Source of the DNA: Pseudomonadota bacterium
GTDB lineage: Bacteria; Pseudomonadota; Gammaproteobacteria; Pseudomonadales; Moraxellaceae
Assembly: GCA_021851865.1 (NCBI GenBank)
Contig: JAJZBU010000013.1
Location: 1 to 64,000 of the forward strand
Direction of reading: 5' to 3'
Length of the DNA stretch: 64,000 nucleotides
Part shown: positions 258 through 53,775 of the stretch, one piece after another
Position numbering within the stretch: position 1 is the first letter of the stretch
Layout: every line of letters begins with the position of its first letter
Notes under the pieces: model-generated
Databases searched by the model: none
What the model saw: only the letters and a program-made list of their open reading frames with translations
Told to the model about the DNA's origin: nothing
Position numbers and translations under genes: made by a program

Positions 258-1583
258 TTGCATCCATCATCGCGGCTTGACGCCCCAGCGACCGCAGGAC
301 CTTCGCCATTGTCTGACCCGAAAGACCCGCCGGGCTTCCGGCGCATCGCCCACCTCGATATGGATGCTTTTTATGCATCCGTCGAACTGTTGCGTTATCC
401 ACAGCTCCAGGGTTGGCCTGTCGTCATCGGTGGTGCCCAGCGGCGTGCCGATGGTCGACTGTTGATGCAGCATGCCGGCGTCGCGCTACAGGATATTCCG
501 GTTGAGGGTTTTCCACGTTTGCGCGACTACGTTGGTCGCGGCGTGATCACCACCGCCAATTATGTCGCGCGTCAATTTGGCATTGGTTCGGCCATGGGCC
601 TGATGAAGGCCGCAGCCCATTGCCCGGATGCGATCTTGTTGCCCGTGGATTTCGATGAGTACCGGCGATATTCGCGCTTGTTCAAGGCTGAGATCCTCGC
701 GCTCACCCCCCATATGGAAGATCGCGGCATCGATGAGGTCTATATCGATCTCAGCGACCTCGCCGGCTGTCGTGCGGATGGTGGTCGCGAATGGGCGGCA
801 CGCTTACAGAACAACATCTTCACCGCCACGGGTTTGACCTGCTCCGTCGGCGTCGCACCGAACAAGCTTATCGCCAAAATGGCCAGCGAGTTGCAGAAAC
901 CCCACGGTTTATCAATCCTTGATGCGTCTGACCTGGAAACCCGCATCTGGCCCCTGCCCTGTCGGAAAATCAATGGCATCGGTCCGAAGATGAGCGAAAA
1001 GCTTGCGCGCTGTGGCGTGCACTCGATCGGCGACCTCGCGGCACAGAACCCCATCTGGCTGATGCAGAATTTCGGCAAGAGCCACGGCCTTTGGTTGCAC
1101 GCCGCTGCGCATGGCCGCGATGATCGCCCCGTCCAGACGAACAGTGAGGCGATTTCCATCAGTCGTGAAACCACGTTCGACCGCGACCTGCACCCGGTAC
1201 AGGACAAAGCGATCTTGACGCGCATCTTTACTCGCTTGTGCGAGCAGGTGGCCGATGATCTGCAACGCAAGGGGTATGTCGGCAAGACCATTGGTGTCAA
1301 GATTCGTTATGACAACTTCAAGAGCGCCACGCGCGACCATACCGGCGAACACTACACGGCGGATGGAGCGACCATACGCGCGATGGCGCGCCGATGCCTG
1401 AGACGGATTCCCCTGGATCGCCGTTTGCGGCTACTGGGGGTGCGCGTAGCTTCATTAAAAAGACTCGAACAGGTAGAGCAGGATGATGCAGCCATGCGGC
1501 GACAGGCGTTGGATGGCTGGACACTCCCCTTGTTCGACGAGGTGAACGGTTTTGGATTTCACGCCGGCCCTTCCGTATCCTGA
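258..1583 (+). CDS. dinB: Y-family DNA polymerase (Pol IV/DinB type), SOS-controlled
   Basis: Translesion DNA polymerase of 441 residues. The catalytic acids are visible: Asp36 in HLDMDAFYASVE and Asp159-Glu160 in DRGIDEVYIDL. The VGVAPNKLIAKMAS segment and a helix-hairpin-helix-like GIGPKMSEKL stretch follow, then the little-finger region. The normal PVxxGG...RGV step is widened: about 34 residues (61-94) separate VVIGG from RGVITTANYVAR, ending in GFPRLRDYVG, a form I associate with a Pol IV subgroup in some other proteobacteria. The start is uncertain. TTG at 258 gives the longest product; TTG at 309 would still keep the catalytic core, but the ATG at 361 would not. The gene is monocistronic behind a LexA box. 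Confidence 0.9.
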   Translation: MHPSSRLDAPATAGPSPLSDPKDPPGFRRIAHLDMDAFYASVELLRYPQLQGWPVVIGGAQRRADGRLLMQHAGVALQDIPVEGFPRLRDYVGRGVITTANYVARQFGIGSAMGLMKAAAHCPDAILLPVDFDEYRRYSRLFKAEILALTPHMEDRGIDEVYIDLSDLAGCRADGGREWAARLQNNIFTATGLTCSVGVAPNKLIAKMASELQKPHGLSILDASDLETRIWPLPCRKINGIGPKMSEKLARCGVHSIGDLAAQNPIWLMQNFGKSHGLWLHAAAHGRDDRPVQTNSEAISISRETTFDRDLHPVQDKAILTRIFTRLCEQVADDLQRKGYVGKTIGVKIRYDNFKSATRDHTGEHYTADGATIRAMARRCLRRIPLDRRLRLLGVRVASLKRLEQVEQDDAAMRRQALDGWTLPLFDEVNGFGFHAGPSVS

Positions 1584-47730: not shown

Positions 47731-49550
47731 ACCCAGGCGTGTTTTCACCCCCCCGCCTGCTTTGGCAGGAAGGTGTGCTGTGGTCGCTCGACTATGCCGA
47801 TGTCTACCATCAGCGGGAAGGCGCCTTGGCGGAGAGCGACCATGTCTTCATCCAGGGCAATGACCTGCCGCGACGCTTCTCGGAACACCGCGAGTTCGTC
47901 CTGGTCGAGCTCGGTTTCGGCACCGCGCGCAATTTCCTCAACACCTGGCGACACTTCGACGGCGAACATCTGACCTATATCGCCACCGAACTTCATCCGA
48001 TCGACATCGCGACACTCCTGCAATTGCATGCCGGTGGCCCGCTGCAAAGCTGGTGCGAAAAACTGGCGGCGCACTGGCCACTCGCCGTTCCTGGTGTGCA
48101 CAGCCTCGAGCTGGAGGCGCGCGTACGACTCATTCTGCTCTGGGGTGACAGCTGCAGCATGCTCGATCGCCTCGATCTCGAGGTGCACGCCTGGTACCTC
48201 GATGGTTTTTCTCCGCCCCGCAATCCGACCATGTGGCATGAGAAACTGTGCCAGAACATCGCCAGACTCAGTGGCCGTGACACCACCTTGGCCTCTTACT
48301 CGGTTGCGGCAGAACTGCGCCGCAACCTCGACAGCGTCGGCTTCGTCTGTCACCGCCGCCCAGCCCTGGGCCAGAAACGGCATTGTCTGCAGGCCCGTTA
48401 CCAAGGATCCTGGCAGACACGGCGCGCCCCTGGCTATCAGGGCCCTGCCACCATGCCTCGACCACGCCGTGTCGTCATCGTCGGCGCCGGGCTGGCCGGT
48501 TGCGCCGTCGCCGCGAGCTTGCGTCACAGCCTCTACGACGGCGAGATCCTGCTCATCGATGCCCGCGGACTGGCGCAAGGCGCCTCCGGCAATCCTTATG
48601 GCCTAGCGGCGATCCGCGCCAGCGATTGGCGACAGCTGCCCGATGCTTGGCGTCCGATCGCCTTCATGCACGCTGAACGCAGCTTACGCCATACGCCCTG
48701 GCCACTCGTACAGGGACACTGGGAAGCCGGGGTCACACCGCAGATCCCCGGGCATGAAGAGATTTTCGACACCGTTCAACGAGCGGGGTTTTTTCGCCAA
48801 CGCTGGAGCGCCAGCCTGCCACCTGTGGCGCTGTGTCGATATTGGCTGGACGATCTCCCCCTGCACACCTACCGTATGATCGACCTCCGCCAGAGCTCTG
48901 ATGGTAGCTACATCCTGTATGATGAGCATGGACAGAGTATCAACGCCGATGCAGTGGTGCTGGCAGGTGGTGCCGACTTCGATCTGCCCGCCTATCCCCT
49001 GCCGCTACGGCGCGTCGCTGGACAGGTCGAGTATGCACCCTGGTCGGGTGACGATGACGCCTGGCAAGGCGACAGCTATGCCCTGGCGCGAGATGGTCTG
49101 CTTCTCTATGGGGCCAGCTTCGATGCACAAAACCTGCAGGAGACGCCGCTCGCTGCAGACAGCGCCCGCAACGATGCTGCTTTACAGAAACTATTGCCGG
49201 ACGCTGATGCGGCCTATCAGCGCGACCTGCGACAAAGTCGTCGTAGTTTGCGCTTGATGAGTCGTGACCATTTGCCGGCGATTGGCGCCTGTCCCGATCT
49301 GACACAGGCGCGTCATCTCTACCAGGATCTGCAGCACGGCTGGCGGCGCCACCATCAAGCGCCGGTCTATCCCGGTCACCTCTATCTCAGCCTGGGGCAC
49401 GGCTCACACGGCCTAAGCCAAGTCAATCTCGCCGCCGCCCATATCGTCGCGCAGATGCTCGGCCACACTTCACCATTGCATCTGCCCCTGCAACAACAGA
49501 TCCATCCTCTGCGCTGGACCTTGCGCGAACTGCAACGGCGGCGCCCTTAA
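47727..49550 (+). CDS. mnmC: Bifunctional tRNA modification enzyme MnmC
   Basis: The 607-residue fusion finishes the wobble base mnm5s2U. Residues 1-240 are the methyltransferase part (VLVELGFGTARNFLNTW; WYLDGFSPPRNPTMW); residues about 245-600 are the FAD-dependent demodification oxidase (VVIVGAGLAGCAVAASL; ASGNPYGLAAIRASDW; GHGSHGLSQVNLAA). It is the last gene of the yciB run and its final four bases overlap the convergent coiled-coil gene. Confidence 0.93.
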   Translation: MNPGVFSPPRLLWQEGVLWSLDYADVYHQREGALAESDHVFIQGNDLPRRFSEHREFVLVELGFGTARNFLNTWRHFDGEHLTYIATELHPIDIATLLQLHAGGPLQSWCEKLAAHWPLAVPGVHSLELEARVRLILLWGDSCSMLDRLDLEVHAWYLDGFSPPRNPTMWHEKLCQNIARLSGRDTTLASYSVAAELRRNLDSVGFVCHRRPALGQKRHCLQARYQGSWQTRRAPGYQGPATMPRPRRVVIVGAGLAGCAVAASLRHSLYDGEILLIDARGLAQGASGNPYGLAAIRASDWRQLPDAWRPIAFMHAERSLRHTPWPLVQGHWEAGVTPQIPGHEEIFDTVQRAGFFRQRWSASLPPVALCRYWLDDLPLHTYRMIDLRQSSDGSYILYDEHGQSINADAVVLAGGADFDLPAYPLPLRRVAGQVEYAPWSGDDDAWQGDSYALARDGLLLYGASFDAQNLQETPLAADSARNDAALQKLLPDADAAYQRDLRQSRRSLRLMSRDHLPAIGACPDLTQARHLYQDLQHGWRRHHQAPVYPGHLYLSLGHGSHGLSQVNLAAAHIVAQMLGHTSPLHLPLQQQIHPLRWTLRELQRRRP

Positions 49551-51415
49551 GCGGAGCGTTGCCACCAGGGTTTTGTCGTCCGCACTCTCTCCGGCGCGGC
49601 GATCACCGGAGGCGGCACCTCGGCACTGAACTCGCGACGGCGCGCGTGCTCGATTTTCATCTCCAGCAACTGCTGTTGTAGCTGGGCCAAGGCCGGACGC
49701 CAAGTCTCGCTCTTCGCCTCGGCATCCTGCTCAAGCGTCCATTCCTGCAACTGCGCTTCGAGCTGCTGCATGCGTGTCTGCATCTCCTGGCGCTCACGAT
49801 GCAACAAGGCCTGTTCCTGCCGTGCCTGCTGCAGCAGCCATTGATGCTCTTGCTGGTGCAAGCTGAATTCACGTTGTGCGAGCTCGACCTCCTTGAGCTT
49901 GTGCAGCGCCCGACGCGCCAACTGCTGCCAATGCTGGACCTGTTGTTCCTGTTCCTGCAGGCGCAGCGTCTGCGCCTGAGCGATGGCCGCGACCTCATCA
50001 TGCCGCCCCTGCCATTGCTCGATCTGTTCGCGCCAATGTTCACCCTGTTGCGCATGGGTCGCCAGCTGTTGCAACTGCTGCTGGCAGGCGGCGGCCATGG
50101 CCTGCTCCCGCTCCGCCTGCCGTTCGATGCGATCTTGCAAGGCTTGCGCTTCCCCATGCCGCGCCTCCTGCTGGGCGCGCGCCGCCGCCAGCGCCTGCTG
50201 ACTCCGCTGGCAGGCGACATCAGCTTCGGCCAGGGAGGTCATCAAGGACTGCATGCGTTCTTCCAACGCCAGCAGATCGCCCTGTCGCTGATCCCCGGCC
50301 TGTTGTTGCTGCAGCAGCATTTGCAGCCCCTGGCGCTGTTCACGCTCCAGTTCTTCGATACGCGCCCACAAGGCCTGTGTCTGCTGCAACAGCCCCTGCG
50401 CCTGCTGCTGGCTCTGGCGAGCAGCGGAGCAGGCCTGTTCATGTTCAGCTTGCAAGCGTTCCTGTTGCTGCACCAGATCCTCAACACGGGCCCGCATAGC
50501 CGCGTCAGCCTGCGTCGCCGCCTGCATGGCGCATTGCTGCTCGTGCACCTGCTGCATCGCCGCATGCTGGGCATCGACGAGCTGGCGCTGATCCCCCTGC
50601 AATGCCTGCGTGTCCTGATGCAATTGCTGCGTCTGCTCCAACAGCGGCTGCAGCGTGTCCTGCAAGGACTGCTGCAGGGCCTGCGCCTGCTGCAAAATCG
50701 CGTCATTGTTCTGCACGCGCTCATCGAGACTCTGCAGAGCCTGCGCCTGCTGCTCGCGCAGCACGACACCCTGCTGCACCTCGCGTTCTGTCTGGGTCCG
50801 CAAACCCTGGAGCTCGAGATACCAGCGCCCCTGTTGATCGAGGGCCTGCTCAGCGGCGCGCAACAGCTCTTGCATACGACGGGACTGCTCTTCCAGGGCG
50901 GCCTCACGTTGCTGCAGATCAGCCTCGCGACGCGCCATCCATTCGCTGCGCTCACGTCGCTCCTCCGCCCATTGCCGCTCGCGCTCCTGCTCACGCTCCA
51001 TCGCAGCGGCACTGGCTTTTTCCTGAAGGTCGATCCGTTCCTGCAAAGACAGCATGCACTGTGCCCAGTCTTGCAGGGCATAGACCTGTTCTTGCAAAAC
51101 ACGGTGCATCCGGGCACGATCCTGCTGCGCCTGCTGTTCTTCTTCCTGGCGACTCGCCCTTTGCACGCGCAGGTCATCATCGCGCGCTCGCGAGTCCGCC
51201 GCCAAGCGAAAGACATCCCGCTGCAAGCGTTGCAAGGCGTCGCCGATGTCGGCGTTCTGGACTGCATGCGGGGCTGCATGCGGGGCTGCATCGAGGTGTT
51301 GGCGTGCAGCCAGCTTGCCCTCCATCCACCCTATCTTATAGGCAGGTTGCTGCAACAACTCCGTCCTGGGATGACGGTGACTCCCTAGCTGGTCGAGAGA
51401 CGGCGTCGCTGTCAT
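49547..51415 (-). CDS. Large glutamine-rich coiled-coil protein of unknown function
   Basis: The 622-residue protein is almost entirely heptad-rich helix from about residue 60 to 590. By my count roughly one residue in five is Gln, with many Glu, Ala, Leu and Arg. There is no signal peptide, membrane helix or recognisable enzymatic motif. The N-terminus (residues 22-42, QQPAYKIGWMEGKLAARQHL) and the C-terminal PPPVIAAPERVRTTKPWWQR are non-coil and could be docking ends. An APHAAPHA repeat near residue 45 comes from a tandem DNA repeat at about 51260-51290. Scaffold, filament or chromosome-organising roles are possible; none is shown. Confidence 0.75.
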   Translation of the reverse strand: MTATPSLDQLGSHRHPRTELLQQPAYKIGWMEGKLAARQHLDAAPHAAPHAVQNADIGDALQRLQRDVFRLAADSRARDDDLRVQRASRQEEEQQAQQDRARMHRVLQEQVYALQDWAQCMLSLQERIDLQEKASAAAMEREQERERQWAEERRERSEWMARREADLQQREAALEEQSRRMQELLRAAEQALDQQGRWYLELQGLRTQTEREVQQGVVLREQQAQALQSLDERVQNNDAILQQAQALQQSLQDTLQPLLEQTQQLHQDTQALQGDQRQLVDAQHAAMQQVHEQQCAMQAATQADAAMRARVEDLVQQQERLQAEHEQACSAARQSQQQAQGLLQQTQALWARIEELEREQRQGLQMLLQQQQAGDQRQGDLLALEERMQSLMTSLAEADVACQRSQQALAAARAQQEARHGEAQALQDRIERQAEREQAMAAACQQQLQQLATHAQQGEHWREQIEQWQGRHDEVAAIAQAQTLRLQEQEQQVQHWQQLARRALHKLKEVELAQREFSLHQQEHQWLLQQARQEQALLHRERQEMQTRMQQLEAQLQEWTLEQDAEAKSETWRPALAQLQQQLLEMKIEHARRREFSAEVPPPVIAAPERVRTTKPWWQRSA

Positions 51416-51723
51416 TTGTTTGACTCCTTTTGCAGTTGCGTTGCAGTTACACCAAGCGCTCCATCATTCAAGCAAAGAACGGGCCAAACATAGGACTGAG
51501 GGTGCGCTAGATGGTCGCGACGACCTTCGCCATGGCAACCTGAGTTTGCCGCACGCTCCAACTCCCATGTCACGGGCTTTATGGCTGATCGCCACAAATA
51601 TGGCGTCAAAAACAAAACGCAACGACACCATGATTTTCGCTTGACAAGTCCACGGGTATCGCGCGACGTAGCCTCATGGCAAGGTATTGGCAAGCACTCC
51701 TCATGTCATTTCTAGATTTACCG

Positions 51724-51758
51724 CTGTCCACAAATTCTGTGGATAAGTCTGTGTAGAA
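51724..51758. other. Cluster of DnaA-box-like sites
   Basis: One perfect box, TTATCCACA on the minus strand (51738-51746), is flanked by TTCTACACA on the minus strand (51750-51758, one mismatch to TTATNCACA) and CTGTCCACA on the plus strand (51724-51732, two mismatches). TCCACA and TGTGGA also form an inverted repeat around AATTC. Three such sites in 35 bases is more than chance would usually give, and they lie 43 bases from an AT-rich tract. Confidence 0.5.
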
Positions 51759-51800
51759 AACTCGGTCAAGGCTCGCAAAGCCACATGCCGACTTAGGCGA

Positions 51801-51860
51801 AGACTTTTTGAATATTTTTTGAACAAATTATTTAACTATAAAAATCAATGAGTTAGAAAA
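51801..51860. other. AT-rich tract
   Basis: I count 10 G or C in these 60 bases, the lowest GC block I noticed in a window of otherwise high GC. It contains GAATATTTTTTGAAC and TTATTTAACTATAAAAATC. It could be a duplex-unwinding element, a promoter UP/-10 region, or decayed foreign DNA. Confidence 0.6.
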
Positions 51861-52089
51861 GGCAAGGAAAACATGCAACGATTAAGACACATTTTTTGAG
51901 CCATCGGATGGCGGCAGTCAGCGATTCTGCGGCGAGTGCATAACTTTGACAGTGAAATTCTGACGCTTCGATGACGGTGGTCGCCCGCAACTCACCTTGA
52001 CGCGGCGGTACCAGCCTACCCCGGCGGGGCGCGCGGATCGCCGCGTGCGACCATGCTCTGGCTGAAGTGCTCAAAATTAATGCTCGCGT

Positions 52090-53580
52090 TCACTCCCCAG
52101 GCTCATCCTCCCAATTCAATTCCAGGGCCGCCTTGGCGACGAGGTCCTCGGGCAGGCTGGCCTGTACCGCCACCCCCAGACGCTCGAAGTCCTTGGCCTG
52201 ATGGATCAGATTGCCACGCCCCTGGCAGAACTGGTTCATCGCCTTGTCGTAGGACTCTTTTGCCCGATCGATCTGCTGTCCGAGAACCTGCATGCCCTCA
52301 AGAAAACCCGCCAACTTCTTATAGAGCTTGGCGGCTCGCTCAGCCAGCTCGGCGCTATGAACGTTCTGTTCCTCAAAGCGCCAGAGCTGCCGTACGATGT
52401 TGAGGCTGGTGAGCAGGGTGGTCGGCGTCGCCATCAGCACCTTCTGCTCGATGGATCGCTCAAACAAACTCGGTTCGGCGCGCATGGCCTCGCTGAACGC
52501 CGACTCGATGGGCACAAACATGAAGACCATCTCCGGCGTCCGCACGCCGGGCAGGGCAAAGTAGTTACGATCAGCGAGTTCCTGGATGCGCGCACGCACA
52601 GCCTGCACATGCTCATTCAAGGCGGCTTGCCGTACCACTTCATCCTCGGCATTGATATACCGGGTATAGGCATTGAGCGACACCTTGGCATCGATGATCA
52701 GATGCTTGTTCTGTGGCAACAGGACCACGACATCGGGGCGACGTCGCCCCTCTTCGGTGTTGAAACTCACCTCCTGTTGAAAATCGAGACCCCGACGCAA
52801 GCCCGAGCGCTCGAGCACATTCTCAAGGACCAGTTCCCCCCAGTTGCCCTGCATCTTCGACTGCCCCTTGAGCGCCGTCGCCAGACCGTGGGCCTCCTCG
52901 CTCATTTGCCGATTGAGCGCCATCAACTGCCCCAGTTCACCACGCAGCAAGGCTTGCTGCTCGACCTCATGGCGATGGAGTTCTTCGACTTTGCTGCGAA
53001 ATTCGAGCAAGCGCTCTTTGAAAGGTTGCAGAAGCTGTTGCAACTGCGTCTGTTGCTGCTCTTGTACGCGCTCACTCTTTTCATCGAGAATTTTTTGCGC
53101 CAGATGCTGAAACTGCTGACTGAGTTCGTCGCGCGCTTGCTGTAGCCAAGCCAGCTTCTCGGCCTGTTGCTGCTGTTCCGCCTGCGCCTGGGTACGCACC
53201 TGAACCAGATCCTGTGCCAGATTCTGACGCGCGCGCTCACTCTCGGCGTACTGCTGTGACCAGCGCCGTCCTTCTTCCTGCCAATGCAGACGCTGTTCGT
53301 GTTCGGCTTGCGTGAGAACTTCCTGCCGCGTCAATCGCTGCGCCTGATCCGCTAGGCTGCGCCGCGCTTCCTGCAAGGCTTGCTCAGCGCGCGCCAACCC
53401 TTCTTGCAGCTCCGGCAGACGTGCTATTCGCTCCTGCCAGAGCTTGAGTTCAGACGCCTGCTGTACGCGCATCAGGCGCAAGGCATAGCGCTGACGCAGG
53501 AACAATAGCAACAAGACAAGGACGAGTCCCCCCATCCCCCAGGCGATCAGAAACGCCTCCCCCTGCCCCTCGCATGACAT
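52090..53580 (-). CDS. rmuC: DNA recombination protein RmuC
   Basis: The 496-residue protein has an N-terminal membrane helix (AWGMGGLVLVLLLLFLRQRY), a long coiled coil (residues about 40-210) and the RmuC domain, with GNWGELVLENVLERSGLRRG, PDVVVLLPQNKHLIIDAKVS and MVFMFVPIESAF, a nuclease-like fold with ID-AK residues. RmuC limits recombination at inverted repeats. The ATG at 53580 gives MSCEGQGEAF; codons upstream have no ribosome-binding site. Confidence 0.93.
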   Translation of the reverse strand: MSCEGQGEAFLIAWGMGGLVLVLLLLFLRQRYALRLMRVQQASELKLWQERIARLPELQEGLARAEQALQEARRSLADQAQRLTRQEVLTQAEHEQRLHWQEEGRRWSQQYAESERARQNLAQDLVQVRTQAQAEQQQQAEKLAWLQQARDELSQQFQHLAQKILDEKSERVQEQQQTQLQQLLQPFKERLLEFRSKVEELHRHEVEQQALLRGELGQLMALNRQMSEEAHGLATALKGQSKMQGNWGELVLENVLERSGLRRGLDFQQEVSFNTEEGRRRPDVVVLLPQNKHLIIDAKVSLNAYTRYINAEDEVVRQAALNEHVQAVRARIQELADRNYFALPGVRTPEMVFMFVPIESAFSEAMRAEPSLFERSIEQKVLMATPTTLLTSLNIVRQLWRFEEQNVHSAELAERAAKLYKKLAGFLEGMQVLGQQIDRAKESYDKAMNQFCQGRGNLIHQAKDFERLGVAVQASLPEDLVAKAALELNWEDEPGE

Positions 53581-53775
53581 CTTCGCGCTTCTCCTGCTTT
53601 TGGCTAGTCGCCCAGCATGGAGGTCGGCGAGGGGATAGAGTCTCTCATTCAGACGGCCCACCGTGACACACGACTTTCCGTCGCCCGTCCCGTCGCCAGC
53701 TCCATGCTGATCGAAACAGAACGCATTGTGCCACAAGGCCAGGACAAAACAGGTCGTCCAGAAGATCAGCCGGCG

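Follow-up and report, generated by a model that had tools for sequence, protein, structure and literature searches.

The locus described here compares most closely with three DnaA-binding sites of Escherichia coli, namely the DnaA-reactivating sequences DARS1 and DARS2 and the site datA. The DARS core consists of three DnaA boxes with identical spacing in DARS1 and DARS2, box I being oriented opposite to boxes II and III; of the two sites, DARS1 needs neither IHF nor Fis (PMC5742627). On boxes I and II, ADP-DnaA interacts head-to-head and releases ADP (PMC8682772). In DARS2, a 10-bp shift of IHF binding toward the Fis sites leaves a moderate activity and a 5-bp shift is partially effective (PMC4245941); the activity of the E. 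coli DARS sites is lost when they are transcribed through (PMC5010248). A 2014 paper described the DARS2 core as confined to E. coli-related gamma-proteobacteria (PMC4245941), and a 2023 review reports DARS-like sequences in many proteobacteria (PMC10380432). The DARS core is already known, and its wide occurrence by itself is not claimed here as new. The conservation of DARS was reportedly first described by Fujimitsu et al. in 2009.

We analysed a stretch of 64,000 nucleotides, hereafter the window, from a 2.44-Mb draft genome of the Moraxellaceae assembled in 54 contigs. An intergenic gap of this window had been singled out, in a sequence-only reading, for a cluster of DnaA boxes beside an AT-rich tract, and a displaced chromosomal origin, a DnaA-regulated promoter, a DnaA-titration or regulatory site and a relic of an integrated replicon had all been proposed. 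Our analysis indicates that the gap probably carries a DARS2-like DnaA-reactivating sequence, in which the order of the elements would be core-Fis-IHF instead of the core-IHF-Fis order of E. coli. The features of the locus are the following.

49547-51415, minus strand: coiled-coil gene, encoding a glutamine-rich protein of 622 aa
51416-52089: intergenic gap of 674 bases, between the coiled-coil gene and rmuC
51700-51866: conserved island corresponding to the whole DARS-like element; it begins shortly before box I and ends shortly after the IHF site
51724-51732, plus strand: DnaA box I, CTGTCCACA, 7/9 match, facing boxes II and III
51738-51746, minus strand: DnaA box II, TTATCCACA, perfect match, 5 bp from box I and head-to-head with it
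51750-51758, minus strand: DnaA box III, TTCTACACA, 8/9 match, 3 bp from box II and in the same orientation
51798-51866: AT-rich block; the lowest-GC 60-mers of the window start at 51798-51812, with a minimum of 10 G+C
51810-51824: Fis-consensus palindrome GAATATTTTTTGAAC, at +87 to +101 from box I, a perfect match to GNNYANNNNNTRNNC
51843-51855, plus strand: IHF-binding consensus AATCAATGAGTTA, at +120 to +132 from box I, a perfect match to WATCAANNNNTTR
52090-53736, minus strand: rmuC (PF02646, E 3e-97)

All the DnaA boxes reported initially are present at their positions, and the AT-rich 60-base block is real, being the most AT-rich 60-mer of the window. The 7/9 box was likewise confirmed, and its plus-strand orientation, on which the sequence-only reading had laid no stress, turned out to be decisive, box I being opposite to boxes II and III. 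The same orientations and the same 5-bp and 3-bp spacings are found in E. coli DARS1 (L067:608-642) and DARS2 (L068:3136-3170), the box III of DARS2 being TTCTTCACA at the same spacing. As expected for a DARS, the three boxes lie in a non-coding gap. In an alignment of 15 relatives (A2), TCCACA of box I and CTGTGGATA of box II are invariant. Box I, CTGTCCACA, is weaker than the consensus, which counts against a DARS.

Box number alone has no significance; what is significant is the arrangement. The comparison of TTWTNCACA sites with shuffled sequence, proposed in the sequence-only reading and run on the whole window, gave 4 sites against 1.6 expected, a number reached by 9 of 100 shuffles. By contrast with this count, the element differs at a single position from a 24-position core pattern, for which first-order Markov sequence (10 Mb, both strands) contained nothing below 7 mismatches, or nothing below 6 when the base composition was set to that of the gap. 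As the choice of this pattern followed the inspection of the relatives, the weight lies on the independent controls given further on. The core is unique in the draft genome. The other perfect TTATCCACA of the window (395-403) has no core around it, and its surroundings look like coding sequence. Rfam and tRNA scans of the window returned no matches.

The AT-rich tract is best read as a predicted platform for Fis and IHF rather than as a DNA-unwinding element, since conserved predicted sites for both proteins sit in it at fixed spacing. Forty loci were taken from the core-pattern matches (at most 2 mismatches), their flanks being disregarded. IHF sites with at most 1 mismatch occur at +119 to +122 in 19 of these 40 loci, against 0-2 in other same-strand windows, and Fis sites with at most 1 mismatch start at +87 in 18 of them, against fewer than 6 at every other start; about half of the loci are without an IHF or Fis site of this quality at the expected place, a point against the DARS2-like reading. 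In the same loci, almost no consensus is seen either in the spacer that separates the core from the Fis site or in the 60 bases preceding box I. The 15 loci of the alignment are relatives chosen mainly by their core; each of them has, on the same strand and at +118 to +123, an IHF consensus with at most 1 mismatch. Such fixed distances across a spacer of free sequence would be the requirement of a bent DNA-protein complex.

The comparison of the gap in related genomes, which had also been suggested, showed that conservation is confined to the element. By BLASTN of the 674-bp gap, 51683-51968 aligned in G002 (81% identity) and 51700-51866 in G001 (79%); across 38 related genomes only an island at the place of the element aligned, the remainder of the gap staying unaligned, and in farther genomes mostly the core alone was recovered. 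Of 370 genomes searched in the class, 266, from 202 of 273 genera, have the core pattern with at most 2 mismatches, and none has the reversed pattern that served as a control. Searches with a profile (R1) detected the element in 240 of the 246 genomes examined in the order (107 of the 109 genera sampled), in 244 of 276 genomes of a class sample and in 178 of 249 of a phylum sample; these counts are softer, as R1 contains the IHF/Fis region, so that its matches lean to the core-Fis-IHF architecture, and its E-values are rough. For the same reason, the spacing stated above rests on core-only selections (BLASTN relatives and core-pattern matches) and not on R1.

Several genomes contain more than one such site. 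In the genome studied here, a second, weaker R1 match (C44:335-456, 29.7 bits) has box II, box III and, at +119, an IHF-like site, but no box I; located at a contig end and adjoining an AMP-binding (acyl-CoA synthetase-like) gene, it is possibly a second, degenerate DARS-like site. Elsewhere the whole element is repeated in tandem at distances of about 285-345 bp (L045:7285-7616, L107:1490-1881, G202:C10:118657-119094), and some genomes have up to six cores (G302). The right half of E. coli DARS2 (L068:3452-3486) comprises a degenerate second core, with 5 mismatches, and an IHF-like site exactly at +120. From this resemblance, DARS2 of E. coli may descend from a tandem pair of the present element.

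Compared with E. coli DARS2, located between rppH and mutH, the element shares the three-box core, an IHF and a Fis consensus, an intergenic location and, as judged in relatives, a position away from oriC. It has one IHF site where DARS2 has two, no counterpart of the extra boxes IV-VI, and other genomic neighbours. Counted from the start of box I, DARS2 has IHF consensus sites with 1 mismatch at +94 on the minus strand and at +110 on the plus strand, and its Fis consensus is at +146. The IHF site at +110 is on the same strand as that of the element at +120, 10 bp or about one helical turn apart. As in DARS2, the IHF consensus, here perfect, stands on the side of box III at a distance that is fixed in relatives. 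The Fis site sets the two apart: the FBS2-3 sites required by DARS2 lie beyond the IHF sites, whereas the Fis site of the element is at +87, which counts against a DARS2. We therefore file the element as a putative DARS2-like variant and not as a DARS2, because its Fis site is between the core and the IHF site. DARS1, located between bioD and uvrB, has the same core and is the E. coli site that R1 matches best over its full length (29.8 bits), ahead of DARS2, also matched over its full length (25.0 bits); it differs in its independence from IHF and Fis, for which the element has both predicted sites. Partial R1 matches were obtained on E. coli datA (20.9 bits), on E. coli oriC (14.6 bits) and on the rpmH-dnaA gap of the genome itself (15.9 bits).

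The partner proteins of a DARS2 are encoded in the genome, where we identified dnaA, hda, ihfA, ihfB, HU and fis. Both the IHF subunits and Fis, expected for the DARS2 subtype, are thus available; the Fis protein is 55% identical to that of E. coli, and the scanned fragment of Hda scores slightly below the family cut-off. Together with the gene order, Fis, Hda and IHF would place the genome in the Gammaproteobacteria. By analogy with the E. coli DARS work, we infer DnaA binding, nucleotide exchange and an effect on initiation. Two head-to-head molecules of ADP-DnaA would occupy boxes I and II, with the support of box III, and would be brought into contact by the bending of the DNA by IHF at +120 and Fis at +87. 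They would then lose their ADP, dissociate from the site as apo-DnaA and take up ATP, and the level of ATP-DnaA would rise before the next initiation at the rpmH-dnaA origin.

A displaced chromosomal oriC, or a second, inactive origin, would imply that DnaA opens the AT-rich tract for helicase loading. The element shares with an rpmH-dnaA type oriC the presence of DnaA boxes and AT-rich DNA, here the most AT-rich 60-mer of the window, but its boxes are only three, it is not beside dnaA, and its AT tract is accounted for by the predicted IHF and Fis sites at fixed spacing. As the sequence-only reading had pointed out, the gap has no dnaA, gidA or rnpA neighbour, being flanked by the coiled-coil gene and rmuC, and it contains no dense box cluster. 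The dnaA gene is on contig C50, in the order trmE-yidC-rnpA-rpmH-(boxes)-dnaA-dnaN-recF-gyrB (genes other than dnaA being identified from translated sequences), and the rpmH-dnaA gap has its own cluster of one perfect and three 8/9 boxes, with a minimum of 16 G+C in 60 bases. A box cluster next to dnaA, named beforehand as an observation that would speak against an origin in the gap, was thus found; the lack of conservation in relatives named along with it was not, the opposite being seen. GC skew across the contig of the window is negative throughout save for a single 4-kb bin in which it is flat, and it switches neither at 51.7 kb nor elsewhere. In a genome of the same family (G018), the motif lies at 735.6 kb of its contig, about 38 kb from a plus-to-minus skew switch; it is near the skew maximum, hence on the terminus side and not in mid-arm, a position that speaks against an origin but also counts against a DARS.

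The position was also determined in 34 single-contig genomes of the order. The distance from dnaA to the best R1 match is 0.19-0.50 genome lengths, with a median of 0.36 and no value under 0.19, genome sizes being rounded to 0.1 Mb and oriC taken to be at dnaA. These distances depart from uniformity (KS p ~8e-7, a statistic that ignores relatedness). The corresponding values in E. coli are 0.21 for DARS2, 0.33 for DARS1 and 0.10 for datA. The position in relatives is thus the one expected of a DARS, and it argues against both oriC and datA. Genomes with two or more copies are moreover common among those searched. On skew, location, box number and copy number, oriC was rejected, and an origin at this site, active or not, appears very unlikely. 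A gidA-type oriC as the site of the relatives' matches was also considered and proved wrong, their neighbours being an SLT transglycosylase gene, the coiled-coil gene, selD, ParA and others.

A datA-like site, acting by DnaA-ATP hydrolysis or titration, would lower rather than raise ATP-DnaA. E. coli datA likewise combines DnaA boxes with an IHF site, and R1 matches it in part; its box geometry is nevertheless different, with boxes far apart and a best core match of 6 mismatches, and the head-to-head pair of boxes I and II with box III is a DARS signature. In addition, datA is origin-proximal and the elements, judged in relatives, are not, and no Fis requirement of datA was found in the literature searched. 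We regard a datA-like function as unlikely. The earlier suggestion of a DnaA-titration or regulatory site was nonetheless close to right, insofar as the element is predicted to be a DnaA-binding regulatory site of the DARS type.

The remaining alternatives concern the neighbouring genes. A promoter of the flanking coiled-coil gene regulated by DnaA, Fis and IHF would agree with the location of the element upstream of this gene in close relatives; the gene flanks the element in four genomes (G001, G002, G005, G020) and is near it in a fifth (G004). In other genomes of the order, however, the element is beside an SLT transglycosylase gene, selD, a gene for a Gate-domain protein or other genes, and it is because its internal layout is kept while the neighbours change that a gene-specific promoter is argued against. 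No sigma-70-like promoter was detected by a scan of the gap, and the terminator scan of the gap gave two weak terminator-like matches against 1.0 expected by shuffle. Such a promoter is in our view quite unlikely. The remains of a plasmid or phage replicon that had integrated could account for a box cluster, and ColE1 carries a DARS (PMC5835720), but the conservation across nearly all sampled genera of the order and the chromosomal neighbours on both sides contradict this proposal, which we consider extremely unlikely.

The coiled-coil protein, for which no Pfam family was matched, has conserved N- and C-terminal blocks (PAYKIGWMEGKLA; EHQWLLQQARQEQ) and is 26-72% identical in five relatives. 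The gene for the SLT-domain lytic transglycosylase adjoins the element in at least six genomes of the family (G001, G005, G006, G019, G020, G021; flanks of loci L033, L035, L037, L042, L043 and L044).

With respect to E. coli DARS2, the new aspect of the predicted DARS2-like element would be the core-Fis-IHF order with fixed spacing, recurring in the class. No description of this arrangement was found in the literature searched, a search that did not cover the survey of Fujimitsu et al. 2009. In other classes of the phylum, the palindrome at +86 to +101 is kept as a TGCCTAAAWTTTAGGCA-like sequence, with a perfect Fis consensus in most of 14 loci (L157-L170). To our knowledge, a Fis protein is not expected in those classes. 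One can tentatively imagine, although we would not favour it at present, that core-Fis-IHF is the ancestral and general proteobacterial element from which the E. coli order was derived, and that elsewhere another dimeric protein, replacing Fis, would bind the +86 palindrome (such as TGCCTAAATTTTAGGCA).

Studies of the DARS branch of the DnaA cycle have been made in E. coli. The occurrence, in the majority of the class genomes sampled, of a core-Fis-IHF element with fixed spacing, located away from dnaA, suggests that dedicated chromosomal sites for the reactivation of DnaA are a general feature. The order of regulator sites known from E. coli would not be the sole one, a point of relevance to the way in which IHF and Fis activate the core. 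In laboratory species such as Pseudomonas putida, the element offers defined targets for deletion or assay.
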